A stretch of DNA of 64,000 nt from assembly GCA_947306365.1 (NCBI GenBank), contig CAMZGD010000009.1, positions 1 through 64,000 of the forward strand. Reading direction: 5' to 3'. Under the pieces are notes generated by a model, which saw only the letters and a program-made list of their open reading frames with translations, did no database searches and was not told the DNA's origin. How positions within the stretch are numbered: position 1 is the first letter of the stretch; each line of letters begins with the position of its first letter. This stretch comes from an uncultured Bacteroidales bacterium (GTDB taxonomy: Bacteria; Bacteroidota; Bacteroidia; Bacteroidales; UBA932). Below, piece by piece: positions 32,438 through 58,471 of the stretch. Made by a program: the position numbers and the translations under genes.

Positions 32438-33609
32438 CGCCGGAGCCACTTCTCGGGATCCTGTTTGTCGGTACCCTTCCAGAGCTGGAAATGCAGGGAG
32501 GAGGCGTTCCCGTCGGCCTCCAGTGTACCCAGCTTTTCGCCGGTGGCGACCTTCTGTCCGGCCTTCACGCTGACTTTCGCCAGCCGGCAGTAGAGGGTGA
32601 AGTATTCGCCGTGCTGGATCAGCACGCACTGGTTGTAGCCGGGCATCACGAAGACCTTGCGCACCTCGCCGTCGAAGACGCAGAAGACTTCGGCGCCCCG
32701 GACGGTGGAGAAGGTGACGCCCGGGTTGTCGGGCAGCTTCAGGTTCTTGTAGACGGGATGATTGTGAACCCCGAAGCGTTCCGTGATGACGCCCTGCTTG
32801 AGCGGCCAGGGCAGCCGGCCCCTGTTCTGCGCGAACTGGCCGGAGAGCGCCGTGTCGATGCGGGTGTTGTCCTTCTTCTGTTCCGTGACGGTGCTCTTGA
32901 GCATCTTCTGGATTTCCCGGCTCAGGCGGTCCACTTCCTTCTTCTTGGCGGCGAGTTCGTCGCGGTACTGCTTTTCGCTCCGGGCCAGGCGCTTCATGTC
33001 CTCCTTCGACTGCCGCTCCTCGGCCTGCAGCTTGCGGTACTCGGCCTCGCGTTCGTTCCGGGTTGTCTGTGCGTCGGCCTTGATGGCGGCGAGTTTTTCC
33101 CGTTCGGCCTGCAGTTCCGCCTGCTTGTCGCGCATCTTTTCCGCCTGGACGCCCACTTCGCCGGCGAGGCTCTTCAGGAAGGAGAACCGCCGGTATCCCT
33201 GTCCCAGGTTCTCGCTGGAAAGGATGTACAGGAACCAGACCTTGGTGTCGCGGTTCTTGTAGGTGTTGTAGATGAGCTTCTCGTAGTAGGTCTCCAGCGT
33301 GTCGAGTTCCTTCTGGATCCGGTTGATCTCGCGCTGCTTGGCCGTCATCTGGTCGTTGACGACGGCGATGCGCCGGTCGAGGTCGCTGATCAGCGCCTGC
33401 CGGTTGGTGACGCGCTTGCGGATGAGCGAGAGCTGTTCCGTGGTGGCTTTCTGCTTGCTGGTGATGGACTTCAGCTGTTTGTCGATGAAACTGATCTCCT
33501 CCTCGATCTGGCGCTTGCGCTCCGTCTGCCGGGACACGTCCTGTCCGAAGGCAGCCGTTCCGAGCAGTAGCAGCACCAGGGTGAGAAGGAGGCTCCGGTT
33601 CATCGTCAT
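32434..33609 (-). CDS. EnvC-like murein hydrolase activator (coiled coil plus LytM/M23 domain)
   Basis: A 391-residue exported protein: signal peptide (LLLTLVLLLLGTAAFGQ), a long charged coiled coil (about 25-245) and a C-terminal LytM-like domain (about 265-391; VYKNLKLPDNPGVTF, VLIQHGEYFTLYCRLAKVSVKAGQ). The His/Asp zinc ligands of active M23 peptidases are not preserved (LKLPDNPG where HxGxD is expected), as in EnvC, so it most likely activates amidases during cell separation. The start ATG overlaps the preceding TPR gene's stop as ATGA; this fixes the start at 33609. Confidence 0.88.
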   Translation of the reverse strand: MTMNRSLLLTLVLLLLGTAAFGQDVSRQTERKRQIEEEISFIDKQLKSITSKQKATTEQLSLIRKRVTNRQALISDLDRRIAVVNDQMTAKQREINRIQKELDTLETYYEKLIYNTYKNRDTKVWFLYILSSENLGQGYRRFSFLKSLAGEVGVQAEKMRDKQAELQAEREKLAAIKADAQTTRNEREAEYRKLQAEERQSKEDMKRLARSEKQYRDELAAKKKEVDRLSREIQKMLKSTVTEQKKDNTRIDTALSGQFAQNRGRLPWPLKQGVITERFGVHNHPVYKNLKLPDNPGVTFSTVRGAEVFCVFDGEVRKVFVMPGYNQCVLIQHGEYFTLYCRLAKVSVKAGQKVATGEKLGTLEADGNASSLHFQLWKGTDKQDPEKWLRR

Positions 33610-35252
33610 TCTTCCTCCTTCAGGGCGGCGGCCTGGTTGAAATAGATGTTCGCCAGGTCCTTCTCGCCGAGTTTTTCCAGTACGGTGGCGTAGTGTTCGA
33701 GGATCGTGCGGCTTTCCTTTCCGCCGTAGAGCATCGCGTGCTTGAAGATCGCCTTGGCCTCGATGTCCTCCCCGAGCAGGTGCAGGATCCACGCATACGT
33801 GTCGAGGTACGTGGGATTGTCGGGCTCGGAGGTGATGGTCTTTCGGCTCATCTCCTTGGCTTTCTTGAGGCGTTTCCCCTCCAGGGAAAGGTAATAGGCG
33901 TAGTTGTTGAGCACGGGGTTGTAGTCCGGGTCGATGCGGAGGGCCTTCTCATAGTACTTGAAGGCCTTCTTGCTTTCACCGAACTTGTAGTAGATGTCGC
34001 CGATGGCGGAGCAGGTCACCTTGACGACGGTGGTGTCCTTCGCATGGATCCGCAGCAGGGTTTCGTAGTCGTCGAGGGCAGACCGGTATTTGTTCAGCTG
34101 GCTGTTCGCGATGGCCCGCAGCTGGAGGATGTCGGCATTGTCGGGGAAGCGCACGAGCGCCGCGGTGGCCTGTTCGGCCAGCGGCTGCCAGGTCTGCTGG
34201 TAGTAGAGGAGGATCAGGTGCTGGAGCGCCGCGTCGGAACTCCCGGGATGCTGCTCCGCGTTCTGGCGCATCACCTCGATGGCCAGGTGCGGGCGGCCTG
34301 TCCGGTAATAGTAGCCGCCGGTCAGGGCGTTGATCGTGCTGTCGGCGGGATGGGCGGCGCGCAGGTCGAGCATCATCTGGTCGAAATCGTCGATGAACGT
34401 CCGCACGAACTGCGGATTGGACGTCAGCTGTTCCACCTGTCCGGCCTTGGCTTCGGGCTGGACGTAGGGATCCTTCATCACGTGCGAGAGGCTGTTGAAG
34501 AAGTTGTCGTACTGGCGGAGCACCTGGTAGACGGCCGCCTTGCCATACCAGGCCGGCGTGTAGTCGGGTTCCATGGCAAGGGCTTCCTCGTAATAGCCCA
34601 GTCCCAGCGAGTCGCGGTAGGTGCTGGCGTAGAAGTCCCCCAGGACCGATGCCAGGCGCGGCGTGCGGCATTCCTCATAATAGCGGGCGAGCGCGGCATA
34701 TACGCTGTCCGGATTCGCATCGGGCCGCTTGAGCAGGAGTTCGGTCCGGGTGAGTCCCACCACTTCGGTCTTTCCCTTGATGGCGTCGATCTTGTCGAGG
34801 GTGGCCAGCGCCTTGTCCAGGTCGTTGTCGGAGAGGTAGACGTTGATCAGGTCGAGATAGAGGTCGCTTTTCTTCGGATAGTCCGCCGCCAGGGTTTCGA
34901 GCATCGGGACGGCGAGTTCCTGCCGGTCGGTATGCAGGTAGTAGAGCGCCAGCGTATAGCTGTACCAGAAGTTGCCGGGTGCCAGCGAGACGGCTTTCCT
35001 GAGCCAGGATTCCGCCTCCGCCCTGCTGTCCGGTTCGGCGGCGCAGAGCATGCCCAGGTAGTAGCAGGCCGCATCGTTGGACGGGTTTTCGCGGACCTCT
35101 TCCAGGAAGAGGCTGCGCGCTTCGGCGCGGTCTCCCTGCTGATAATATTTCAGGGCGTCGATATACTTGACGGACTGGGCCGGGAGATTGAAACAGGCGC
35201 ACAAAAGGACGATTCCCACCACAATCTTGCGCAAAAAACTTGAACTATCCAT
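33606..35252 (-). CDS. Exported TPR-repeat protein
   Basis: A 548-residue protein with signal peptide (IVVGIVLLCACFNLPAQ) and tetratricopeptide repeats along most of its length, for example CYYLGMLCAAEPDSRAEAESW, YEEALAMEPDYTPAWYGKAAVY and YEKALRIDPDYNPVLNNYAYYL. TPR arrays hold protein partners; here probably a periplasmic or lipid-anchored scaffold. It is translationally coupled to the EnvC-like gene, which points to a cell-envelope task. I start at 35252 because this ATG gives the signal peptide. Confidence 0.86.
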   Translation of the reverse strand: MDSSSFLRKIVVGIVLLCACFNLPAQSVKYIDALKYYQQGDRAEARSLFLEEVRENPSNDAACYYLGMLCAAEPDSRAEAESWLRKAVSLAPGNFWYSYTLALYYLHTDRQELAVPMLETLAADYPKKSDLYLDLINVYLSDNDLDKALATLDKIDAIKGKTEVVGLTRTELLLKRPDANPDSVYAALARYYEECRTPRLASVLGDFYASTYRDSLGLGYYEEALAMEPDYTPAWYGKAAVYQVLRQYDNFFNSLSHVMKDPYVQPEAKAGQVEQLTSNPQFVRTFIDDFDQMMLDLRAAHPADSTINALTGGYYYRTGRPHLAIEVMRQNAEQHPGSSDAALQHLILLYYQQTWQPLAEQATAALVRFPDNADILQLRAIANSQLNKYRSALDDYETLLRIHAKDTTVVKVTCSAIGDIYYKFGESKKAFKYYEKALRIDPDYNPVLNNYAYYLSLEGKRLKKAKEMSRKTITSEPDNPTYLDTYAWILHLLGEDIEAKAIFKHAMLYGGKESRTILEHYATVLEKLGEKDLANIYFNQAAALKEEE

Positions 35253-35272
35253 CTTTTTTTCTAAATTCGTTA

Positions 35273-35280
35273 CAAAAATA
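35273..35280 (-). promoter_or_regulatory. -7 element of the TPR-EnvC operon
   Basis: TATTTTTG on the reverse strand, 20 bases before the ATG at 35252. Candidate -33 TTTG motifs exist at spacings of 16 and 23 bases, neither ideal. Confidence 0.5.
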
Positions 35281-35372
35281 GTGGTTAAACGCTGAACAAA
35301 AAACAAACCACATTTTTTTTTGCAGGGAACACGCAACATTCGCCCCTGCTCCTGCATCTATAAATAGCAGCG

Positions 35373-35927
35373 ATGAGGGATTCTTCCAGATATACCGAAG
35401 CAGAACTGATTGCCGGCTGCACCCGTGGGGAACGGGGAGCGCAACAGCTGCTGTATGAGCGCTATGCATCGGTGATGTATCCGGTGTGTCTGCGTTATCT
35501 CGGGCGGGAAGATGCGAAGGATGTGCTGCAGGACGGTTTCCTGACGGTCTTTGACAAGATTGGCACCTACAAGGGAGAAGGCTCTTTCGAGGGATGGATG
35601 CGGAAGATTTTCGTCAATGCCTGCCTGATGCGCCTCCGCAAGTCGGATGCGCTCCGGTTTACAGAAGACATTGCCGAGGCGCCCGAACTGGGCGGGACGG
35701 TGGATTACGGCGTGCTGGAGCAGCTTGGGACAAAAGAGATCTTGGACCTGGTGGCACAGCTGCCGCCGGGCCTGCGCAGCGCCTTCAACCTGTTCGTGCT
35801 GGAAGGCTACACGCACGCCGAGGTGGCGAAGGCGCTCGGGATGACCGAGCAGTCCTCCCGTTCCCAGGTGAGCCGTGCGCGAAGCCTGTTGCAGAGAAAG
35901 ATAAAAGAGTTATATAATGGAAAATAA
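35373..35927 (+). CDS. ECF-family RNA polymerase sigma factor (copy 1)
   Basis: A 184-residue sigma-70 family protein with only regions 2 and 4. Region 2 covers about 20-90 (YERYASVMYPVCLRYLG, EDAKDVLQDGFLTVFDKI, FEGWMRKIFVNACLMRLR). Region 4 covers about 120-180 (LPPGLRSAFNLFVLEGYTHAEVAKALGMTEQSSRSQVSRAR) with the helix-turn-helix. The last 11 bases overlap the next gene, which encodes an inner-membrane-anchored barrel protein that probably acts as its anti-sigma/sensor. A second, similarly arranged pair is at 48658-50389. Confidence 0.93.
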   Translation: MRDSSRYTEAELIAGCTRGERGAQQLLYERYASVMYPVCLRYLGREDAKDVLQDGFLTVFDKIGTYKGEGSFEGWMRKIFVNACLMRLRKSDALRFTEDIAEAPELGGTVDYGVLEQLGTKEILDLVAQLPPGLRSAFNLFVLEGYTHAEVAKALGMTEQSSRSQVSRARSLLQRKIKELYNGK

Positions 35928-37059
35928 AGATTTCGACAAGATGCTGCGCGATCGCCTTTCCGGCGTGACCGTGCCGGCGCCCGATGTCTGGGAAGGCATC
36001 AGCAAGGGGCTGGCGCGCAGGCATCGCCGGGTGCTGGTGCGCCGGTTTGCGACGGCTGCCGTCGCGGCGGCAGCCGGCCTCGCCGTCGCATTCCTCGCCT
36101 TCCGGGATCCGAAACCTGAAAAACAGGTTCCGGCTCCGGTACAGACAGCCCGGGTGGAGCCTTCACAACAGCCGCTGCAGGCCGCCCCGTCCGAAGAGAT
36201 CGCCCCGATCGCCGAACAGATTGCCGCCTTCACGAAGAAGCAGGCCGTTGCACAGGCCGTCGTGACGAAGCCCGCCACGGTTCCCGCCGCCGAAACGGTG
36301 ACGGAACCCGAAACGGAAATGGTGCAGCCGGAAACCGAACCGGAAACGGTGACAGAGCCCGAAACGGTAACCGAGCCTGTCGCACAGGAACCCGTACCCG
36401 CCGACTTCTGGGTGGAAGACGTCCCCGAACGCAAGACACACACATCCAAACTATCCATATTATCCAATCTTACCACCGTCGCCTCCGACGGGGACCTTAT
36501 GTACAAGGCGAGTCCGATGCACAGCTCCTCCCAGACCGGCAACCGCGCCGAATCTTCGGTGGAGCCTGTCGCCGGGACGCCCCGGTTCTTCTCGCCGCTG
36601 AGCCTGGGCCTGCAGGTCGAAGTCCCGGTGTCCGGCCGCCTGTCGGTCGCCACCGGCCTGACGTACTCGTACCTGGTTTCCCAGTATGACATGCTGGTCG
36701 ACAAGGTCCGATACGACGGGGCCTACAACCAGCTTCACTATGTCGGCATTCCGCTGTCGCTGTCGCTGCATTTGGTGGAGACGCCTTCCTTCGGGTTCTA
36801 TGCGTCGGCCGGCGCCGCCGTGGAGAAATGCGTGGCCCAGCGCTATGTCTATGCGAGCAACACGCTCAGCGAGAAGGTCGGCGGCCTGCAGTGGTCGGCC
36901 CGGGCGGGTCTCGGCGCCGAGTACTGGTTCGTACCGCGCCTGGGACTCTATTTCGATCCGAGCCTGGTGTATTTCTTCGACAACAGTCAGCCGCTGAGCA
37001 TCCGTACGCAGCAGCCGCTGCAGGCCCGCCTGGAAGTTGGCCTGCGTTTCAAGCTCTGA
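35917..37059 (+). CDS. Inner-membrane anchor / Pro-Glu linker / C-terminal beta-barrel protein, putative anti-sigma (copy 1)
   Basis: A 380-residue protein with an unusual plan. Residues 1-42 are short, charged and cytoplasmic (DKMLRDRLSGVTVPAPDVWEGI). Residues about 43-62 form one transmembrane helix. Residues 63-165 are a Pro/Glu/Val-rich linker with TEPETE-type repeats (about 127-154), followed by FWVED. From about 222 an outer-membrane beta-barrel-like domain runs to the terminal GLRFKL. It overlaps its sigma gene by 11 bases. The short N-terminal segment is the likely sigma-binding part. No FecR or zinc-binding anti-sigma domain is present. I infer that it tethers the sigma factor and reports outer-envelope state; no function is proven. 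Confidence 0.8.
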   Translation: MENKDFDKMLRDRLSGVTVPAPDVWEGISKGLARRHRRVLVRRFATAAVAAAAGLAVAFLAFRDPKPEKQVPAPVQTARVEPSQQPLQAAPSEEIAPIAEQIAAFTKKQAVAQAVVTKPATVPAAETVTEPETEMVQPETEPETVTEPETVTEPVAQEPVPADFWVEDVPERKTHTSKLSILSNLTTVASDGDLMYKASPMHSSSQTGNRAESSVEPVAGTPRFFSPLSLGLQVEVPVSGRLSVATGLTYSYLVSQYDMLVDKVRYDGAYNQLHYVGIPLSLSLHLVETPSFGFYASAGAAVEKCVAQRYVYASNTLSEKVGGLQWSARAGLGAEYWFVPRLGLYFDPSLVYFFDNSQPLSIRTQQPLQARLEVGLRFKL

Positions 37060-47552: not shown

Positions 47553-48587
47553 TCAGCGGTTCCGCTTTTTGTATTGACTGGGCGTCATTCCCGTCGTCTT
47601 TTTGAACAGGGAACTGAAATAGGTGAAATGGTCCATGCCGCAGCGGAAAGCCACGTCTCCGATGGGAATGTCCGTGTTGTCCAAAAGCTTCTTGGCAACG
47701 GACATCCGGATATGCAGGATGCATTCGCTGGTCGTCTGTCCCGTGATAGCTTTCAACTTCCGGTTGAGATGGGGCCTGGACATGCATAGGCTGCGTGCGA
47801 TTTCATCATAGTCGATTCGGGATCCCTTTTCCATGCTCTGTTCGACGAGCGTCGAGAACTTATGGATAAAAGAACGCTCGGAATGGGACAGCGTTTTCTC
47901 CCGTTCCCGGGGGAGGTGGATGGAAAACCGTTTCTGGACCGGGATGTTGACGATGAAGGTCGATCCGATATTGGGAAAACTATAGATGTCGAGGTGGCCG
48001 TCCATGGCGTCTACCGCCATCTTCGTCAGGGGAAGACCGATGCCGATACCTTGTTCGTCGGCTTCGTCAACCTGATAGAAGGGCTTGAAAATATGCTCTT
48101 TCTGCTCGGCGGTTATGCCGATTCCCTTGTCGCTGACGAAGATTTGCAAGAGTCCGTCTTTCAATCGGGTGGAGATGAGCACTTCGCTGCCGGAAGGAGA
48201 AAACTTGATGGCGTTGCGGATCAGCTCTTCCACTATCTTGTAAGTATAAAAGGGGATGTGTTCGATCTCTACGGGTTCCTTCTGCTGGCCGTAAATGAGC
48301 CGGATTCCGTTTTCCTGCGCGAACGGCTCGCAACCGCGGCAGGCGTTTGAGACCAGACTGACGATATCGCTGCATTTCCAATTTGCGGAATACTCGACGG
48401 GAATGGAAACGTCCGCCACATCCAGATAATTACGGGAGATTGCGGAAAACAAGAGATTATGCTTGTCCGATATCTCTTCCCTGGCCGCCCTTTCCCGCTT
48501 CCGGAGACAGCGTATATAGCAGACCAGGCCGACAGAAACACTGACGGCCAGAATGGTCAGGAGGGCGTATAAGGTAGTCAGGGACAT
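47553..48587 (-). CDS. Miniature membrane-anchored HATPase-AraC regulator
   Basis: A 344-residue protein with one N-terminal membrane helix (about 5-25), a histidine-kinase-type ATPase domain (about 70-218) and an AraC helix-turn-helix domain (about 240-344). ATPase motifs are intact: N box ELIRNAIKFSP with Asn125, DKGIGI, IFKPFYQV and GIGIGLPLTK. The usual Bacteroidales hybrid two-component system also has a large periplasmic sensor, a HisKA phosphoacceptor and a receiver domain; none is seen here, and the short stretch 35-70 has no HE/D-type phosphoacceptor motif. The AraC part (AVAKKLL-like MSVAKKLLDN, GDVAFRCGMDHFTYFSSLFKKTTGMTPSQYKK) looks functional. It probably controls the fimbrillin-like gene downstream. 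The start at 48587 is the only plausible ATG. Confidence 0.85.
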   Translation of the reverse strand: MSLTTLYALLTILAVSVSVGLVCYIRCLRKRERAAREEISDKHNLLFSAISRNYLDVADVSIPVEYSANWKCSDIVSLVSNACRGCEPFAQENGIRLIYGQQKEPVEIEHIPFYTYKIVEELIRNAIKFSPSGSEVLISTRLKDGLLQIFVSDKGIGITAEQKEHIFKPFYQVDEADEQGIGIGLPLTKMAVDAMDGHLDIYSFPNIGSTFIVNIPVQKRFSIHLPREREKTLSHSERSFIHKFSTLVEQSMEKGSRIDYDEIARSLCMSRPHLNRKLKAITGQTTSECILHIRMSVAKKLLDNTDIPIGDVAFRCGMDHFTYFSSLFKKTTGMTPSQYKKRNR

Positions 48588-48657
48588 ATCGCACCATTGT
48601 CTGGCGCAAGATACATCAAAAAGTTTGAAAAACCAAAAGGACGGGGATCGGACGGGT

Positions 48658-49827
48658 TCAGTCCTGTCCCATCCGCAGCCGGAGGCCGACGTGCAGGTCG
48701 AAGGAGAACGGGTGCTCCCGATAATAGTTCGGCAGTTTGTCCGAAGGCGTGATATGCCAGGCGAAACCGGGCTCGAGGTAAAGACCGAGCCGGGGTGAGA
48801 AAGCGTATTCCGCTCCGGCGGCGCCGGTAAGCGAGAAGAAAACGGGATGCGTTTCCACGTGGCCGGAAGCGACGGTCTGTCCGTCGGCACGGGTCAGGAG
48901 CCGGCCGGCTATGAGCCATTCGGCTTCTCCGCCGGCAGCGGCATAGAGTGAGCCCCGTTTCCAGTCAGCCAGGGTAAGGATGCCCTTGAGCGGAATGCCG
49001 GCATAATGGAGCCGGTACTCCTGGCTTTGCGCGGGGAAAGTCTGGTTCTGGCCGGACACCCGGATGCGGTGGAAACTGTAGTCGAGTCCGCTTTCCCAGG
49101 ATAGGCGTGAGCCGTTTTCGAACTGTATGGCGATGCCCGTCTTGACAGGGAGGTCGCATAGCAGGTTGACCGGGAGGCTGCTGACGGGATTACGCTTGTT
49201 GTCCATCAGGTTTCCCAGCAGGGCGTAGTCTGTCGTTTGTCCGGTCGGGGAACCTTTTCGAGTGGAAACGGCATCGAGGGTGGGTGCCGCGTCGGTGGTG
49301 GTGCCGTTGCGAAGGGAAAGCGGCGAGAAGTGGATGCGTGCGGACAGCCGGGGCTGTCGCCCGGATTCCGGTTCATCCACCCACACCGGGCTGGCAGCGG
49401 CAGGCGCAGCGGGGCCTTCCGGCTGCATTTCCGGTTGTACTTCCGGTTGGATTTCCGGTTCGGCCGCGTCCGGGACGGACGGCGTAGCGGGTACGGCGGG
49501 TTTGGCAAGACTGGATACGGGACCCGGATGGGAGACGTTAGCGGCAGGCAGGCGGCGGGCCGGCCGGTCAGGCAGCGGCCGGGCAGCAGCCAGGTACGAG
49601 GGCGTTTCCGTGGCGAGGGTGGCCGGCAGGGCGGCAATCAGCGGCTCCCGGAGCGTCCGCTCCGTTTCCGGTTTCCGGACCAGAAGCATCAGCAGGAGGG
49701 CGGCGGCAGCGCCGGTGAGCAGCGGCAGGATCCATCCGGTCCACCGCCGGGCCGGTGCCGCCGCGGGCAGATCGAGCTCATAGTCGCCGAGCTTGTCCTG
49801 GAAGGGTTCGATCCATTTATCTTTCAT
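48658..49827 (-). CDS. Inner-membrane anchor / Pro-rich linker / C-terminal beta-barrel protein, putative anti-sigma (copy 2)
   Basis: A 389-residue protein with the same plan as the one at 35917: short cytoplasmic N terminus (1-29), one membrane helix (about 30-50, GWILPLLTGAAAALLLMLLV), a Pro-rich linker (51-150) with PEIQPEVQPEMQPE repeats ending in VWVDEPE, and a C-terminal barrel-like domain from about 216 to GLRLRMGQD. Shared barrel positions include LHYxGIPL, YAxAGxxxE, PRLGLYxxP and VGLRxxL. It overlaps its sigma gene by 11 bases, exactly as in copy 1. Likely anti-sigma or envelope sensor; unproven. Confidence 0.78.
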   Translation of the reverse strand: MKDKWIEPFQDKLGDYELDLPAAAPARRWTGWILPLLTGAAAALLLMLLVRKPETERTLREPLIAALPATLATETPSYLAAARPLPDRPARRLPAANVSHPGPVSSLAKPAVPATPSVPDAAEPEIQPEVQPEMQPEGPAAPAAASPVWVDEPESGRQPRLSARIHFSPLSLRNGTTTDAAPTLDAVSTRKGSPTGQTTDYALLGNLMDNKRNPVSSLPVNLLCDLPVKTGIAIQFENGSRLSWESGLDYSFHRIRVSGQNQTFPAQSQEYRLHYAGIPLKGILTLADWKRGSLYAAAGGEAEWLIAGRLLTRADGQTVASGHVETHPVFFSLTGAAGAEYAFSPRLGLYLEPGFAWHITPSDKLPNYYREHPFSFDLHVGLRLRMGQD

Positions 49828-50389
49828 GGTCCTTTCTGTTTCTGTATTCTCTGATCCATTGCGAAAGCAGGGCCTTGGCCCGGTGCAGGTTGGAGGCGGA
49901 GGTGCTTTCGCCGATCTGCAGTTGTTCCGCAATTTCCTTGTGGCTCATTTCTTCAAAGATGTAGAGGTTGAACACGGTCCTGTACCGGTCGGGCAGCCTG
50001 CGTATCATGGCCAGCAGTTCCTGCTGCGGGATGTCGGCGATGTCCGGCGCCTCGTCGGGTTCGGGCAGTTCGCCCAGGAAGTCTATATCGGTCTGCGGCA
50101 TCTTCTTTTTCGCCCGCAGGTATTGCAGCGCTTCGTTGGCGGCAATCCGCCGGCACCAGGCCTGAAGGGATCCGGTACCCCGGTAGGCGAAGCTGTCGAA
50201 CCGGGTGTATATCTTGATGAACGTATCCTGCAGAAGGTCTTTCACCGCCTCGTCGTCCCGGACATAACGTGCACATACGGCAGCCAGATAGCGGTGAAAC
50301 TGCTCGTAGAAAGAACGCTTCGCAGCGGGACTGCCCCTGCGAAGCGATTCGATCAAGTCTCTTTCCTTTTCTGCAGAGGCGGGAATCAT
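49817..50389 (-). CDS. ECF-family RNA polymerase sigma factor (copy 2)
   Basis: A 190-residue sigma factor: region 2 about 25-95 (YEQFHRYLAAVCARYVRD, VKDLLQDTFIKIYTRFDSF, LQAWCRRIAANEALQYLRA) and region 4 about 125-185 (LPDRYRTVFNLYIFEEMSHKEIAEQLQIGESTSASNLHRAK). It lies 13 bases after the first serpin's stop and overlaps the barrel gene, so it may be cotranscribed with the serpins. A near-consensus -7 element TAACTTTA (50401-50394) before its ATG could add an internal start. Confidence 0.92.
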   Translation of the reverse strand: MIPASAEKERDLIESLRRGSPAAKRSFYEQFHRYLAAVCARYVRDDEAVKDLLQDTFIKIYTRFDSFAYRGTGSLQAWCRRIAANEALQYLRAKKKMPQTDIDFLGELPEPDEAPDIADIPQQELLAMIRRLPDRYRTVFNLYIFEEMSHKEIAEQLQIGESTSASNLHRAKALLSQWIREYRNRKDHER

Positions 50390-50402: not shown

Positions 50403-51644
50403 TCATTTTCCGGCATACTTCCCGGCGAAGAGGACGGCTCCGGTGCTTGATTCGGTTATCAGGTAAAGGAAGGGGCGGTTGGCGTGGAACACGACCTTTC
50501 CCGACGGTCCGATGGCTGTGGTCATCATGCCGATGACGGTGACGGCTGCCGCTTCGGTCCCTTCTTCGTCCACCTTGATGACGGCGTCCTGCTGGACAAA
50601 GTCCACGTAGCTCGCCTTCTCGCTCATCGCCAGGAAATCGGCGGTCTGCGGGTTGAAGCTGCGCTTCATGCCCAAATCCTGGAGGATACCGTTGAGGAGG
50701 ATGTGGTACTTCATCTCAAAGCGGGGGAGCCAGAGGTCGGTTTCCACTGGACTGCCTGTGCGGATGCCTTCCTTGGCGAGCCGTCCGGAAATCTCCTGCA
50801 CCGTATGGCCCTTCTTCGGCAGCAGCACGGCCATCGAATAGGCGCCGTTTCCGTAAGGCAGCCAGATGGCCTGGTACGCATCGCTCTCCCGGTAATTGAA
50901 TTGCTTGCCGTCCAGTTTCATCATCTTGACCTTGTCGGTCTTGCCGTCTTCCTGCGTGAAGGTTTCCGCTTCTGTACGGTTCTTGTCAAACTTTTCCCGC
51001 CATTCGCTCTTGAAATACAGCGCATTGATCAGGTAGGCCAGCGCCTGGGCCTCCACATTGTCGATAACCGAGGGGATCAGGCCGTTCGTCTGCCGGCTGC
51101 ACCAGTCGTTGATGGTGCCGGCCGCGGCCTTTCCCTTCGTGAAGTCGAGCGCCTTGAGTTCGGCGGAATAGTAATCGGTCACCGTGTTCTTGAACGGTGT
51201 CTTCAACGTGAGCTTCTGGTTGTAGAAGATGGCATTGGCCAGTGTCAGCTTCGTTTTCTTGTCGAGGGCGGGCAACTGCTTGAGCAGCAGCTTGCAGAAC
51301 TCATTGATGTCGGCTGTCTCTCCCTTACCGTAGCCCAGCAGGCCGCAGATCTCGTCGGCCGTCTCTCCCTGCGCTCCGTTGAGGAGCATGCCCAGGGCGA
51401 GCTGAAGGCTCAGCGGCGAGACGAACCACGCGTCTTCCTTGTTCTTTGCCGCCTGGTCGGCGACCTGTCCGATGAAGCGGAAGGCAAAGTCGTTGCCCGC
51501 CGCAACATAGCCAGCCTGTTTCGTGGAAAGGGAGAGGGGCTTGTACGGATTGTCTCCGTTGTCGTCATTCGGAATCACTTCCCCGCAAGAAACCGTCAGG
51601 AAGGGGAGCAGTGCAAACATCAGTATCCAGGCGATTCTTTTCAT
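50403..51644 (-). CDS. Serpin protease inhibitor, lipoprotein (copy 1)
   Basis: A 413-residue serpin with lipobox LTVSC (Cys20). Core motifs: AWFVSPLSLQLALGMLLNGAQGET, NAIFYNQKL, NDWCSRQTNGLIP, ALYFKSEW, FLYLITE. The reactive-centre hinge VDEEGTEAAAVTV keeps the small residues needed for an inhibitory serpin (P15 Gly, P12-P10 Ala), and the exposed loop reads MMTTAIGP. Counting 17 residues from the hinge Glu puts P1 at about the second Thr, suggesting a target with elastase-like preference; this is an estimate. Surface anchoring would protect the cell from host or rival proteases. Confidence 0.9.
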   Translation of the reverse strand: MKRIAWILMFALLPFLTVSCGEVIPNDDNGDNPYKPLSLSTKQAGYVAAGNDFAFRFIGQVADQAAKNKEDAWFVSPLSLQLALGMLLNGAQGETADEICGLLGYGKGETADINEFCKLLLKQLPALDKKTKLTLANAIFYNQKLTLKTPFKNTVTDYYSAELKALDFTKGKAAAGTINDWCSRQTNGLIPSVIDNVEAQALAYLINALYFKSEWREKFDKNRTEAETFTQEDGKTDKVKMMKLDGKQFNYRESDAYQAIWLPYGNGAYSMAVLLPKKGHTVQEISGRLAKEGIRTGSPVETDLWLPRFEMKYHILLNGILQDLGMKRSFNPQTADFLAMSEKASYVDFVQQDAVIKVDEEGTEAAAVTVIGMMTTAIGPSGKVVFHANRPFLYLITESSTGAVLFAGKYAGK

Positions 51645-51712: not shown

Positions 51713-52939
51713 TTATTTTCCGGTATACTTTCCGGCAAAGAGGATAGCGCCCGACTTCGCTTCCGTGATGACATACAGGAACGGACGGTCGGCGTGGAAT
51801 TCCACTATGCGCGGCGGCTGGCCGACAGCCGTGGTCATCATCATGCCGGCGCTGGAGATGGCGGCCGCTTCGGACCCCGTTTCATCGACCTTGATGACGG
51901 CGTCCTGCTGGACGAAGTCGAGGTAGTCGGCGCGGTCGGACATCGCCTTGAAGTCGGCCTTTCCTTTCTTGAAGGCGCGCGGCATGCCCATTTCCGACAG
52001 GATATCGTTGAGCTTGACGTGGTACTTGGTCTCAAAGCGGGGCAGCCAGAGATCGACTTTCACGCTGTACTGGCCCGCGCAGATCTCGTTCCAGCTGTCC
52101 GCGTCAAGCGCGGCGGCCAGTTCGCCGACGGTGCGTCCTCCGGCAGGCAGCAGCACGATCATCGAAAACGCGCCGTTTCCGTAGGGCAGCCGGACGCAGC
52201 GGCACAGCGCGTGCTCACCGTAACGGAACCGTTCGGTCTGCTGCATCATCTTGACCGGCGTGTCGCCGCCTTGCTCGCGGTGGAAGGGTTTCTCCTCCGT
52301 ACGTTTCGCCGGGAAGGCATCCTGCCAGCTTCCCTTGAAATAGAGCGCATTGAGCAGGTAGGCGAGCATTTCGGGCTCCACCTTGTCGAGGACGCCGGGA
52401 ATCAGGCCGTTGGTCTTTTCGCTGCACCAGCCGTTGATGCGCTTCAGGGAAGCCGTTCCGTTCCGGAAGTCTAGATTCTCGACGGTCGCGTCATAGTATG
52501 CGTCCATCTGCTGCACATAGGAGGGCTTGAGCTTCGCCTGCTCATTGAGGAAGATGGCATTGGCCAGCGTGAGCTTTGTCTTTGGATCGCGCAAGGGAAG
52601 CGAATCCAGCATCGCCCGGGCATAGGCGTTGGCCGCGTCGATCTCGTCGGCGCCATAACCCAGCACGCGTGCAATTTCGTCGGCCGTCCCGTCCTGTGCG
52701 CCGCTGAGGAGCATGCCGAGCAGGAACTGCATGCTGACCGGCGAGACGAACCAGTCGCCCGGCTCGTTGCGTTCAATCTGCCGCAGGAAGCGGAAGGCGA
52801 AGTCGTTTCCGGCTTCGACGAAGGATGGCTGTTCGGTTTCCCGTTCGATGTGTACGTTTGTTGTCGTGCCACAGGCGCTAAGCGCAGCCGTCAACAGCAA
52901 GAGGGGCAATCCGCCAAATAAATGCATAATATGTGTCAT
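51713..52939 (-). CDS. Serpin protease inhibitor, lipoprotein (copy 2)
   Basis: A 408-residue paralogue of the serpin 68 bases downstream (lipobox LSAC). It shares DWFVSPVSMQFLLGMLLSGAQDGT, NGWCSEKTNGLIPGVLDKVE and DFVQQDAVIKVDE. Its hinge is VDETGSEAAAISS, again of inhibitory type, but the loop differs (AGMMMTTAVGQPP), so the two probably inhibit different proteases. I start at 52939 (MTHIMHLFGG), which gives the lipoprotein signal; 52972 and 52927 are alternatives. First gene of the reverse-strand serpin-sigma run. Confidence 0.9.
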   Translation of the reverse strand: MTHIMHLFGGLPLLLLTAALSACGTTTNVHIERETEQPSFVEAGNDFAFRFLRQIERNEPGDWFVSPVSMQFLLGMLLSGAQDGTADEIARVLGYGADEIDAANAYARAMLDSLPLRDPKTKLTLANAIFLNEQAKLKPSYVQQMDAYYDATVENLDFRNGTASLKRINGWCSEKTNGLIPGVLDKVEPEMLAYLLNALYFKGSWQDAFPAKRTEEKPFHREQGGDTPVKMMQQTERFRYGEHALCRCVRLPYGNGAFSMIVLLPAGGRTVGELAAALDADSWNEICAGQYSVKVDLWLPRFETKYHVKLNDILSEMGMPRAFKKGKADFKAMSDRADYLDFVQQDAVIKVDETGSEAAAISSAGMMMTTAVGQPPRIVEFHADRPFLYVITEAKSGAILFAGKYTGK

Positions 52940-53053
52940 TTTGAAAGGGTATCGTCGCAAAAAAGAGGCCATACTTCCTGAATGACCGGGTAAAAGGTTC
53001 CCAGATAGAAAAAACAGGTTCTCCTGATGCTAACGCCAGCGGTGGGGGTGTTT

Positions 53054-55475: not shown

Positions 55476-57962
55476 TCAGTCGTTGTTCATCTCCCGGATG
55501 TCGACCTGGTCGCGGTGCGAGGTGCCGAGCAGCCATTCGCTGTACCAGTCGGCCATCCGCCAGAAGAAGTATTCGTTCATGTCGCCAAAACCGTGCCGCT
55601 GGCCCGGAAGGACGAGCATGTCGAAGCGCTTGTTGGCGCGGATCAGCGCGTTGACCACGCGGATCGTGTTGCTCGGGCTCACGTTGTCGTCGATGTCGCC
55701 CGTCACCAGCAGCAGGTGTCCCTTGAGGTTGCCGGCGATGTCCTGGTTCTTGTCGATGCTGTACTTGAAGGTGGTATCGCCCGAAGCCGTGATCTCTTCG
55801 AGGATGCCGTGGTGCTGCTCGCTCCACCAGCGGTTGTAGATGCTGTTGTCGTGGTTGCCGGCGCAGGAGACGGCGGCCTTGAAGAAGTCGGGATACTTGA
55901 GGATGGCCGCGGTGGACATGAAACCGCCGCCGCTGTGGCCGTGGATGCCCACGCGGTTGATATCGATGAATTTATGGCGCGAAGCCAGCTGCTGGATGGC
56001 GTATTTCTGGTCTTCCAGGCCGTAGTCGCGGAGGTTGCCGTAGCCGAAGTTGTGGTACCACTTCGAACGGTTCGGGTGACCGCCGCGGTTGCCCACGGTG
56101 ATTACGATGAAGCCGATCTGGGCGAGCCGGTCGGTGCGGGTGAAGTTCTTCGACCAGTACTCGAAGTTGCCTTCGACCTGCGGGCCGGGGTACACGTAGT
56201 CGATGATCGGATATGTCTTCGTGGAGTCGAAGTCGAACGGCTTGTACATATAGCCGTAGAGGTCGGTCACGCCGTCGGCGGCCTTCACCTTGAACGGGGT
56301 GGGGAACTGGTAGCCAGCCGCCAGCAACAGGGAGAAGTCGGCTTCCTGGAGGGGCATCACCCGGCGTCCCGTGGCGTCGAAGAGCGTGACCTGCGGGATG
56401 GCGTCGACACGGGAGCCGTTGCTCACGAAGAATTTCGCGTCGTCGCTGAAGCTGTTGGAATAGGCGTTGTAGTCGGCCGTGTCGAGCTGCTTCAGGCCGG
56501 TGCCGTCGAAATTGATCCGGTAAACGTGGCCGTTGTAGGGATTCTCGTCCTTGTTCACGCCCATCGCCAGGAAGTAGATGACCCGGGCGGCCTCATCCAC
56601 GGCCAGCACGTTTTCCACGTGGTAGGCGCCGTCGGTGATCTGGCGCTTGAGCGTACCGTCCGCGCCATAAAGATAGAGCTGGGCCCATCCGTTGCGTTCG
56701 GACCACCAGATAATGTCCTTGCCGGCGTTCAGGAGCCGCGGGTCGCGGACTTCCACGTAGGTGTTGAGGCGCTCCTCGATGACGGTGCGGGCGCTGTCCT
56801 GCGCCAGATCGATGCGGAGCAGGTCGGTGCGCTTGAGGTCGCGGCTGCGGCGGATCATGTAGAAGCCGTCGTTGTCGCCCATCCAGACGCTCTTGCGCCA
56901 GTCGTCATAGCGGTCGGCGTTCCGCGCCGTCCTGCGGAACAGCTCGGTGTCCTGGTCCTTGAAGGCGGCGACATTGATCTCCCGGCCGGTTTCCGTGGCC
57001 ATGTCGAACACGTAAAGGTGGTTGACCGGCCCGGGCTCGCCCGGCATCTGGTATTTGTAGGTCTGCAGCGTCGGGCGCGGCTGTGCCACGGAGTTGATGA
57101 CCCAGAGGTCCTTGACCTTCGTCATATCGAACTTCTCCACGGCGAAGTGCTTCGAGTCGGGCGACCACAGCACGTAGTTGGGTGTGCGCCGGGTGGTGTC
57201 CTTCATTTCGGAGGCGCGGTAGTTGCTGCCGCCCCAGTAGAAGTCCTTCGTGCCGTCGCTGGTAAGGCGGTGGTCCACCACGGTGGAGTCCTTTTCGTCC
57301 TCCATCAGCTTACGCACGTCTTCGATGTCCATCCAGTAAAGGTCATATCCCTTGGAATACACGGCTTTCGTGCCGTCGGGCGAGATGCAGGCCCACATCG
57401 GATAATCTTTCTTCTCTTCGTTCTCGGTCACGTCCACCAGCTTTCCGGTGGCAAGGATGTACTCGAAGCGATAGACTTTCGGCTCTTTCCTGGGCTTTCC
57501 CTTGGGCTTGGGCTTTCCTTCCTTTCCGTCCTCTCCTTCCTTCATCTGGCCTTCGTCCCTCTTTTTCTTGTCTTTCTTCTCCACCATTTCGGTGCTCTGG
57601 ACTTCGAAGGTGAACTTTGCGTCGTCTTTCAGTTCGAGTTTGCGGAGCGGCAGGTGCTGGGCGTCGAACGGGTCCTTGACGATGGCCGAGATCTCCATGG
57701 CGAGGCGCTCCATGTCGAAGGCCTTGGTCTGGGTTTTGGCCACCGGATCCACGATGTAGTATTCGGTCCCGGCGGAGGTCTTCCACTCATACCAGAACTT
57801 GTCGGAGTTCTTGAACCAGTTGGGGCGGATGGAGGTACTGAAGACCATATTGCCCACCTTCTTGGCGGAGAACTGGTCGGCCAGGGCGTAGTTCGGCTCC
57901 TGGGCCGTGGCTGCGGCGCAGAGCGTCAGGGCAGCGATGCAGCAGAAAAGCAGTCGTTTCAT
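55476..57962 (-). CDS. S9 family peptidase, dipeptidyl-peptidase IV type
   Basis: An 828-residue periplasmic serine peptidase that removes N-terminal dipeptides. Signal peptide (LTLCAAATAQ), an N-terminal beta-propeller (about 60-570), and a C-terminal alpha/beta-hydrolase domain with Ser677 in GHSGGG, the Asp in DIDDNVS (about 758-759) and His790 in GQRHGF. Residues about 127-162 are a strongly charged Lys/Glu/Gly/Pro insertion inside the propeller. I start at 57962, where the signal peptide begins; the open frame runs on upstream into another gene. Last gene of a three-gene reverse operon. Confidence 0.92.
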   Translation of the reverse strand: MKRLLFCCIAALTLCAAATAQEPNYALADQFSAKKVGNMVFSTSIRPNWFKNSDKFWYEWKTSAGTEYYIVDPVAKTQTKAFDMERLAMEISAIVKDPFDAQHLPLRKLELKDDAKFTFEVQSTEMVEKKDKKKRDEGQMKEGEDGKEGKPKPKGKPRKEPKVYRFEYILATGKLVDVTENEEKKDYPMWACISPDGTKAVYSKGYDLYWMDIEDVRKLMEDEKDSTVVDHRLTSDGTKDFYWGGSNYRASEMKDTTRRTPNYVLWSPDSKHFAVEKFDMTKVKDLWVINSVAQPRPTLQTYKYQMPGEPGPVNHLYVFDMATETGREINVAAFKDQDTELFRRTARNADRYDDWRKSVWMGDNDGFYMIRRSRDLKRTDLLRIDLAQDSARTVIEERLNTYVEVRDPRLLNAGKDIIWWSERNGWAQLYLYGADGTLKRQITDGAYHVENVLAVDEAARVIYFLAMGVNKDENPYNGHVYRINFDGTGLKQLDTADYNAYSNSFSDDAKFFVSNGSRVDAIPQVTLFDATGRRVMPLQEADFSLLLAAGYQFPTPFKVKAADGVTDLYGYMYKPFDFDSTKTYPIIDYVYPGPQVEGNFEYWSKNFTRTDRLAQIGFIVITVGNRGGHPNRSKWYHNFGYGNLRDYGLEDQKYAIQQLASRHKFIDINRVGIHGHSGGGFMSTAAILKYPDFFKAAVSCAGNHDNSIYNRWWSEQHHGILEEITASGDTTFKYSIDKNQDIAGNLKGHLLLVTGDIDDNVSPSNTIRVVNALIRANKRFDMLVLPGQRHGFGDMNEYFFWRMADWYSEWLLGTSHRDQVDIREMNND

Positions 57963-57973
57963 ATCGTGTCTGT

Positions 57974-58471
57974 TTAATTGTTTCGTTCCCATTCTCCCAC
58001 TTCCATGTCTTTCAGGGCGCCGTCTTCGATGCGGAAGCGCAGGGCGGTCCTGACCAGGTGGAAGCCCTGGATGCCGGCGGCGCCGGGGTTGAGCACCATC
58101 ATGTCGTAGTGCTTGTCGTAGACGACTTTCAGGATGTGCGAGTGCCCGCAGACGAACAGTTTCGGGCGGTAGGCTTCGATGAGCCGGAGTGCCCGGTAGT
58201 CGTAGTGACCGGGGTAGCCGCCGATGTGCGTCATCAGCACGCTCATCCCGTCCTGTTCGAAGAAGGCGCTTGCGCGGGCGAACGACCGTACGTCGTAACC
58301 GTCGCAGTTGCCGTGGACGCAGACCAGGGGCTTGAAGGTGGCGATCTCCGAGAGGGTGGCTTCGCCTCCGAAGTCGCCGGCGTGCCACACCACGTCCACC
58401 GGTTCGAGGAACCGGCGTACCTTTTCGTCAAAATATCCGTGCGTGTCGGAGATCAGTCCGATGTAGGCCAT
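57974..58471 (-). CDS. YfcE/MJ0936-type metallophosphoesterase
   Basis: A 165-residue calcineurin-like phosphoesterase. Metal-binding motifs: SDTHG (7-11 region), AGDFGG, VHGNCD, THIGG and CGHSHI, in the normal order. Such proteins hydrolyse phosphodiesters; the substrate is unknown. It lies 3 bases after the acetyltransferase-like gene and 11 before the peptidase gene, so all three are cotranscribed. Confidence 0.9.
   Translation of the reverse strand: MAYIGLISDTHGYFDEKVRRFLEPVDVVWHAGDFGGEATLSEIATFKPLVCVHGNCDGYDVRSFARASAFFEQDGMSVLMTHIGGYPGHYDYRALRLIEAYRPKLFVCGHSHILKVVYDKHYDMMVLNPGAAGIQGFHLVRTALRFRIEDGALKDMEVGEWERNN

Follow-up and report, generated by a model that had tools for sequence, protein, structure and literature searches.

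Background

Two genes for extracytoplasmic function (ECF) sigma factors of an uncultured Bacteroidales bacterium (GTDB lineage UBA932) each overlap the gene of a partner protein that joins an inner-membrane anchor to a barrel domain. This arrangement raises the question of which genes such a sigma factor controls and what its partner may sense. In the present study, we analysed the two pairs, called copy 1 and copy 2 (Table 1), in a stretch of 64,000 nucleotides (positions 1 to 64,000 of contig CAMZGD010000009.1, assembly GCA_947306365.1), hereafter the window. Both pairs belong to the already published Dma family of anti-sigma factors (Dma1/Dma2, Reo). The family itself is thus known; new here are a predicted protein-quality-control gene set for copy 1 and the close link of copy 2 to protease inhibitors. 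As a whole, the data are very probably best explained by a Dma-type membrane-spanning anti-sigma factor in each pair, with a predicted regulon of copy 1 and a probable serpin output of copy 2.

In the FecI/FecR and RpoE/RseA systems, the anti-sigma factor crosses the inner membrane. The window partners differ from FecI/FecR in that neither has a Pfam match to the FecR family at E up to 1, as the earlier note on this DNA had stated, and in that the sensor barrel lies within the anti-sigma factor instead of in a separate transducer.

Relatives are described in several papers. Dma1, Dma2 and Dma3 of Bacteroides thetaiotaomicron are presented in PMC13088901. There, the family is said to occur in Bacteroidota only, vesiculation increases via the cognate sigma factor once dma1 or dma2 is deleted, and Dma sensing and control are called largely unknown. 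M0N98_03760 of Phocaeicola vulgatus is Reo, with the same protein plan; disruption of its gene turns on a protective regulon, and the envelope-damaging toxin BcpT raises the sigma transcript 33-fold (PMC9308784, PMC13114119). According to these three sources, the cognate sigma factor becomes free when dma1, dma2 or reo is lost. The earlier note knew of no characterised member, which has to be corrected, since Dma1/Dma2 and Reo have been characterised genetically. The EcfO promoter motif of B. fragilis is also in print, according to PMC7366714.

Two sigma factor pairs of the Dma family

Profile comparison by hhalign gave a probability of 100 across the barrel for both copies. The reference was a set of 12 sequences from the named genera Phocaeicola, Bacteroides and Coprobacter (two of them from P. 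vulgatus ATCC 8482), which the copy-1 orthologs (21 sequences) matched with E=1.1e-46 and the copy-2 orthologs (12 sequences) with E=1.3e-46. The two partners of the window are homologous to each other (BLASTP, 30% across 288 residues, E=1e-23), and both sigma factors are of the ECF type (Pfam; NCBIfam superfamily TIGR02937). In P. vulgatus ATCC 8482 there are two strong members of the family, each with a sigma gene upstream; both are in the profile-matched set, and the EcfO-Reo pairs of B. fragilis and P. vulgatus share the protein plan. The likeness to Dma1/Das1 and Dma2/Das2 of B. thetaiotaomicron, in which an ECF sigma factor is likewise accompanied by an anti-sigma factor reaching from the cytosol to the outer membrane, is one by description; the scan of named genomes used a 6-row alignment, and among the matches listed there was no B. 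thetaiotaomicron or B. fragilis record.

A genome survey, proposed in the earlier note, found pairing with a sigma gene nearly throughout. Of 64 rows (58 distinct proteins), 63 have the sigma gene directly upstream, the exception sitting at a contig start; the same holds for all 30 loci of a second set, the window locus included, and for 56 of 57 rows of relatives, mostly Bacteroides, Phocaeicola and Barnesiella records, a set that counts one gene twice and in which the exception is a fragment at a contig edge. At E up to 0.001, the family profile matched in 228 of 295 Bacteroidales genomes, many of these matches being weak.

The coordinates of both pairs and their 11-base overlaps (ATGGAAAATAA in copy 1, ATGAAAGATAA in copy 2), as first reported, are exact in the sequence. 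The earlier note also emphasised that the copies share one plan, one overlap length and a W-V-[ED] motif at the linker end; the overlap length and the motif are indeed shared by the two window copies, but the likeness is overstated. Among the closer copy-1 orthologs, the overlap varies from 11 to 17 bases, and copy-2 orthologs overlap by 11, 4 or 1; we therefore rejected a fixed overlap of 11 bases as a conserved device. W-V-[ED] was rejected as a family motif, being present in two of 63 rows (58 distinct proteins), both of them the window proteins. The linker-end W alone is nearly invariant among copy-1 orthologs.

A predicted promoter of the copy-1 sigma factor

All 26 copy-1 loci carry CAACRTT-N13-GCATCT, an element of exact spacing, upstream of sigA, the copy-1 sigma gene (24 with CAACATT; two, L008 and L014, with CAACGTT), and it is kept down to copy-1 sigma proteins that are just about 50% identical. 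In the window, the copy before sigA is the sole exact match. In 40 congeneric genomes, the A form (CAACATT) occurs at 110 sites against 6 for a reversed control and the G form (CAACGTT) at 79 against 4, together 189 sites against 10 for the reversed pattern; 186 sites are in the 32 genomes classed sigA-positive and three in the eight classed negative. We infer from this conservation that the copy-1 sigma factor recognises the element.

We further compared the DNA upstream of ppiD between genomes with and without the copy-1 pair. This gene was searched in 30 of the 40 genomes, being present in 25 and giving no match in five; a second, weaker ppiD match in genome G021 was left aside. In the original classes, a perfect element precedes ppiD in 18/18 genomes with the copy-1 pair versus 1/7 without it (Fisher p=4e-5). 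The exception, G021, has a diverged copy-1 pair, with a sigA ortholog, adjoining the same TPR and M23 genes and carrying a 12/13 element; after its reclassification, which was post hoc, the counts are 19/19 with the sigma factor and 0/6 without. On the ppiD tree the sigma-less label needs three changes, and G006, with neither sigA nor the element, is the sister of G021 with full support. Before ppiD in the six sigma-less genomes, the element scored no higher than in shuffled sequence. The element thus co-distributes with the copy-1 sigma factor.

As a general Bacteroidales motif, the element was rejected: outside the genus we found only variants (e.g. CAGTATT...CATTTA) before some Dma sigma genes, with scores mostly not above shuffled sequence. 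By eye, a third Dma group (L051, L052, L062, L047) has ACGCATT, about 13-15 nt and then GTGTTTAT or GTATTTAT upstream of the sigma gene, which looks like a separate promoter built on the same lines.

Genes behind the element

Of the 189 sites, 120 distinct ones were read for the DNA that follows them, identical contexts having been removed; most sites at already known sigA genes were left out of the 120, and the sizes of the following groups reflect the loci that were fetched. The largest group of proteins is a PpiD/SurA_N peptidyl-prolyl isomerase behind 16 sites (Pfam SurA_N_2, 3e-28). ECF sigma genes, namely sigA and others such as that of L244, stand behind 13. Radical-SAM-associated lipoproteins follow nine sites (TIGR04134, above its cut-off), and a further group of four resembles them solely below that cut-off; a group of seven, and others, are lipoprotein-like by eye. 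In relatives, serpins are behind five sites (PF00079) and SmpB behind two (PF01668, 2e-53 for the one scanned). Thirty-six sites have no such reading frame. Eight of them precede transfer-messenger RNA (tmRNA), a ninth such site, in G034, being identical in context, and both tmRNA loci scanned (L285 and L204) matched Rfam RF00023. Ten others precede a short RNA, about 65 nt long. Its 5' leader, GGTTTAGGTTTTAGTA, is constant and served to pick these loci, and its strong terminator-like hairpin has a stem of variable sequence. The RNA is found in the genome of the window (G000:C34:223-248; loci L279, L286) and in nine further loci; the four of the ten loci that were scanned (L203, L242, L267, L286) gave no Rfam match at the gathering score.

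In the genome of the window itself, exact A-form sites are located before sigA, tmRNA (contig C19) and the short RNA (C34), and G-form sites before ppiD and a gene for a lipoprotein-like protein of 166 amino acids, both on C1. Six further element sites have one mismatch. The predicted copy-1 regulon here thus probably consists of the sigma gene itself, the PpiD/SurA_N isomerase, tmRNA, the short terminator RNA and a lipoprotein, to which relatives probably add SmpB, serpins, more lipoproteins and other ECF sigma factors. That tmRNA and its partner SmpB each carry the element independently argues for a real regulon. The copy-1 sigma factor probably drives an envelope and protein-quality-control regulon, by analogy an RpoE-like one; periplasmic foldases and small RNAs also belong to the RpoE response. 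The published outputs of Dma1/Dma2 are vesiculation, NigD and changes in polysaccharide utilization loci (PULs) (PMC13088901); those proposed here are different, with ppiD, tmRNA, the short RNA and lipoproteins predicted for copy 1 and a link to serpins for copy 2.

Other ECF sigma genes lie directly 3' of the element in L228, L239, L244, L251 and L275 and are FecI-like in appearance (L244 was scanned). The position of such genes behind the element suggests a sigma cascade.

Serpins and the copy-2 pair

The copy-2 sigma gene begins 13 bp behind two serpin genes, so that its output probably includes protease inhibitors, as judged from gene order. In 11/11 orthologous loci examined (of 12 copy-2 orthologs, that of G036 was left out), a serpin gene on the same strand is directly upstream of the copy-2 sigma gene, and the third Dma pair of this genome (L051) has one directly downstream. 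Among the 40 congeneric genomes, a serpin gene lies within 3.5 kb of 41 of the 58 Dma genes that were classed as non-copy-1, about 1.1 being expected if genomes are taken as 2 Mb, versus one of 29 copy-1 genes. Four genes of the former class (G013:C39, G032:C30, G019:C16, G021:C15) are copy-1-like by identity and elements, and the contrast is thus understated. Conversely, 57 of the 115 serpin matches have a Dma gene at a distance of no more than 3.5 kb, and serpins occur in 34/36 genomes with Dma versus 0/4 without a Dma match. These counts are uncorrected for kinship or genome incompleteness and use Dma matches at E up to 8.9e-39 only, a second piece having been merged into one G017 gene.

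None of the four serpin genes of this genome has the copy-1 element within one mismatch, and the regions 5' of serpin genes in nine loci gave no common motif that might serve as a copy-2 promoter. A link between serpins and Dma was not found in the titles and abstract beginnings of the literature searched on serpins with sigma factors or Bacteroidales, nor did a term search of the accessible text of PMC13088901 find 'serpin'.

A gene for a DPP-IV type peptidase lies at 55479-58313 (minus strand) of the window; in L174, L175 and L177, what is apparently its counterpart leads directly into the cluster of serpin, sigma and Dma genes. The protein encoded at 47556-48599 (minus strand), immediately downstream of the copy-2 pair, consists of a histidine-kinase-type ATPase domain joined directly to an AraC-type DNA-binding domain; at E up to 1e-4, Pfam gave it neither a receiver nor a HisKA match. 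On the copy-1 side, the TPR gene adjoins the pair in 9/9 copy-1 regions (L184-L192), in eight of them divergently from the sigma gene.

Architecture of the partner proteins

Full-length structure prediction, as the earlier note had suggested, gave the same anatomy for both partners, in which a short head in the cytoplasm is followed by a single membrane helix, a linker predicted to be disordered and, at the C-terminus, an 8-strand barrel. In the copy-1 model, a head helix (residues 3-14) is followed by a second helix (24-61) that continues into the membrane span, then by a linker of low confidence and by eight strands, each of at least 9 residues, within residues 178-379; the block confidence (pLDDT) is 88-97 for residues 221-380 and 69 for the first strand. 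The copy-2 model has a head helix (6-13), a membrane helix (33-49), a linker and eight strands of at least 9 residues within 160-386, with pLDDT of 82-98 for residues 221-389 and 69-84 for the first strand. The anchor, periplasm-spanning linker, barrel and putative anti-sigma head of the earlier note are supported by both models, and they match the published Dma/Reo plan. The closest solved folds to both models are outer-membrane barrels (OprF, OmpA, NspA, OmpW); Pfam barrel families are reached only under their curated cut-offs. A C-terminal domain that folds as a beta-barrel but stays soluble in the periplasm, instead of inserting into the outer membrane, is in our view highly improbable.

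The heads of the two copies differ. A head of 42 residues, as first described, is right for copy 1, the pattern of which, roughly L+..L.....P...W..I...L, is common across Bacteroidales. It does not apply to copy 2, where about 31 residues precede the membrane helix and where, as in 11 orthologs, the second head helix and its conserved W are missing. This single-helix head is one difference from Dma1/Dma2 and, if it binds the sigma factor, would be an unusually small segment for doing so.

In four (L162-L165) of 11 fetched relatives with long reading frames, the sigma factor is fused in front, giving a chain of sigma factor, membrane span, linker and barrel; the family match begins at the membrane span in all four, and no head was found. 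Dma3 (PMC13088901) is likewise a sigma factor fused to a barrel protein; in both window copies the sigma factor is a separate protein. Relatives from one other Bacteroidales genus have tandem heads before a single membrane span, six in L325 (the same place as L169) and four in L326, as counted by eye. Absence of the head from sigma fusions and its repetition elsewhere fit a module that holds a separate sigma factor, and the head may thus be the part that binds sigma.

Table 1. Features of the two Dma-type pairs and their neighbours in the window
Feature	Position	Strand	Size and evidence
Copy-1 ECF sigma gene (sigA)	35373..35927	+	184 aa; Pfam Sigma70_r2 6.6e-13, Sigma70_r4_2 1.9e-14
Copy-1 Dma-type anti-sigma gene	35917..37059	+	380 aa; structure model, fold matches, hhalign E=1.1e-46
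Copy-1 cytoplasmic head, two helices	35917..36048	+	alignment, model
Copy-1 inner-membrane helix, residues about 44-64	36046..36108	+	hydropathy peak from residue 44; model helix 24-61
Copy-1 Pro/Glu-rich periplasmic linker, residues about 62-175, predicted disordered	36100..36441	+	block pLDDT 42-65, residues 61-170
Copy-1 8-strand outer-membrane barrel (modelled), residues 178-379	36448..37053	+	model
Predicted ECF-type promoter of copy-1 sigma, CAACATT-N13-GCATCT	35334..35359	+	ends 13 nt 5' of start codon
TPR protein gene, conserved copy-1 neighbour	33606..35357	-	TPR families
Copy-2 ECF sigma gene	49817..50389	-	190 aa; Pfam Sigma70_r4_2 1.2e-16, r2 1.9e-12
Copy-2 Dma-type anti-sigma gene	48658..49827	-	389 aa; alignment, model, fold matches, hhalign E=1.3e-46
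Serpin 1	50403..51644	-	PF00079 3.1e-97; 13 bp before copy-2 sigma gene
Serpin 2, furthest upstream in copy-2 cluster	51713..52972	-	PF00079 8.1e-99; true start possibly further inside

Proposed mechanism and alternative explanations

In the mechanism that we propose, the cytoplasmic head would hold the sigma factor, and a single polypeptide would run from the inner membrane through a disordered periplasmic tether and end in the outer membrane as an 8-strand barrel. The sigma factor would be released when the outer membrane or the assembly of the barrel is disturbed, or when the tether is disturbed or cut, and the freed copy-1 sigma factor would then turn to envelope and protein-quality-control genes. 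In its most far-reaching form, the proposal is that the copy-1 Dma sigma factor serves this Bacteroidales genus as its RpoE-like factor for envelope stress, recognising CAACRTT-N13-GCATCT and coupling the state of the outer membrane, through one continuous protein, to a PpiD-type foldase, ribosome rescue by tmRNA/SmpB, a trans-acting-type short RNA, lipoproteins and serpins, and that paralogous Dma pairs took over serpin operons against protease attack; we give this full form an even chance.

The signal may be of another kind. One alternative, after Pardue et al. on Dma2, is that the pair is a nutrient sensor, the barrel responding to a particular ligand, for instance a glycan, and not to damage. 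Surface glycan sensing is hypothesised in the Discussion of PMC13088901, and PUL expression is altered in delta-dma2. We consider this unlikely for the window pairs: a SusC/SusD match is absent from the ten neighbouring window proteins scanned, the genes linked to the copy-1 element are protein-quality-control genes, lipoproteins and serpins, and the P. vulgatus pair responds to an envelope-damaging toxin (PMC9308784). For copy 2, a sensor of proteolysis is a better candidate, albeit still a tentative one that we would not favour: a protease arriving at the envelope would cut the long, exposed tether or the barrel loops, the sigma factor would be freed, and serpins would block the protease. 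The serpin genes directly before the copy-2 sigma gene in every locus examined, the gene, apparently for a DPP-IV type peptidase, by which they are directly preceded in several relatives, and the co-occurrence of serpins with Dma genes, both along the chromosome and between genomes, are in its favour, but that co-occurrence is uncorrected as stated above, and the serpins may be mere co-transcribed neighbours.

The recogniser of the element may also be questioned. Further ECF sigma genes exist, some of them behind the element themselves, and another sigma factor or a repressor might bind CAACRTT-N13-GCATCT in place of the copy-1 sigma factor. Against this, the element precedes the copy-1 sigma gene in every copy-1 locus and is missing before ppiD where that sigma factor is missing, the pair of sister genomes included, and we judge recognition by another protein to be quite improbable.

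Conclusions

With a predicted promoter and a gene list, and with the element absent before ppiD where the sigma factor is absent, the question of what Dma pairs control becomes testable, and the copy-1 prediction can be checked in any species with a copy-1 ortholog. Our results suggest that, in place of the RseA/RpoE system of Enterobacteria, these bacteria may use a sensor in which one protein is anchored in both membranes. Furthermore, the link to serpins suggests a second output of the family, a defence against proteases.
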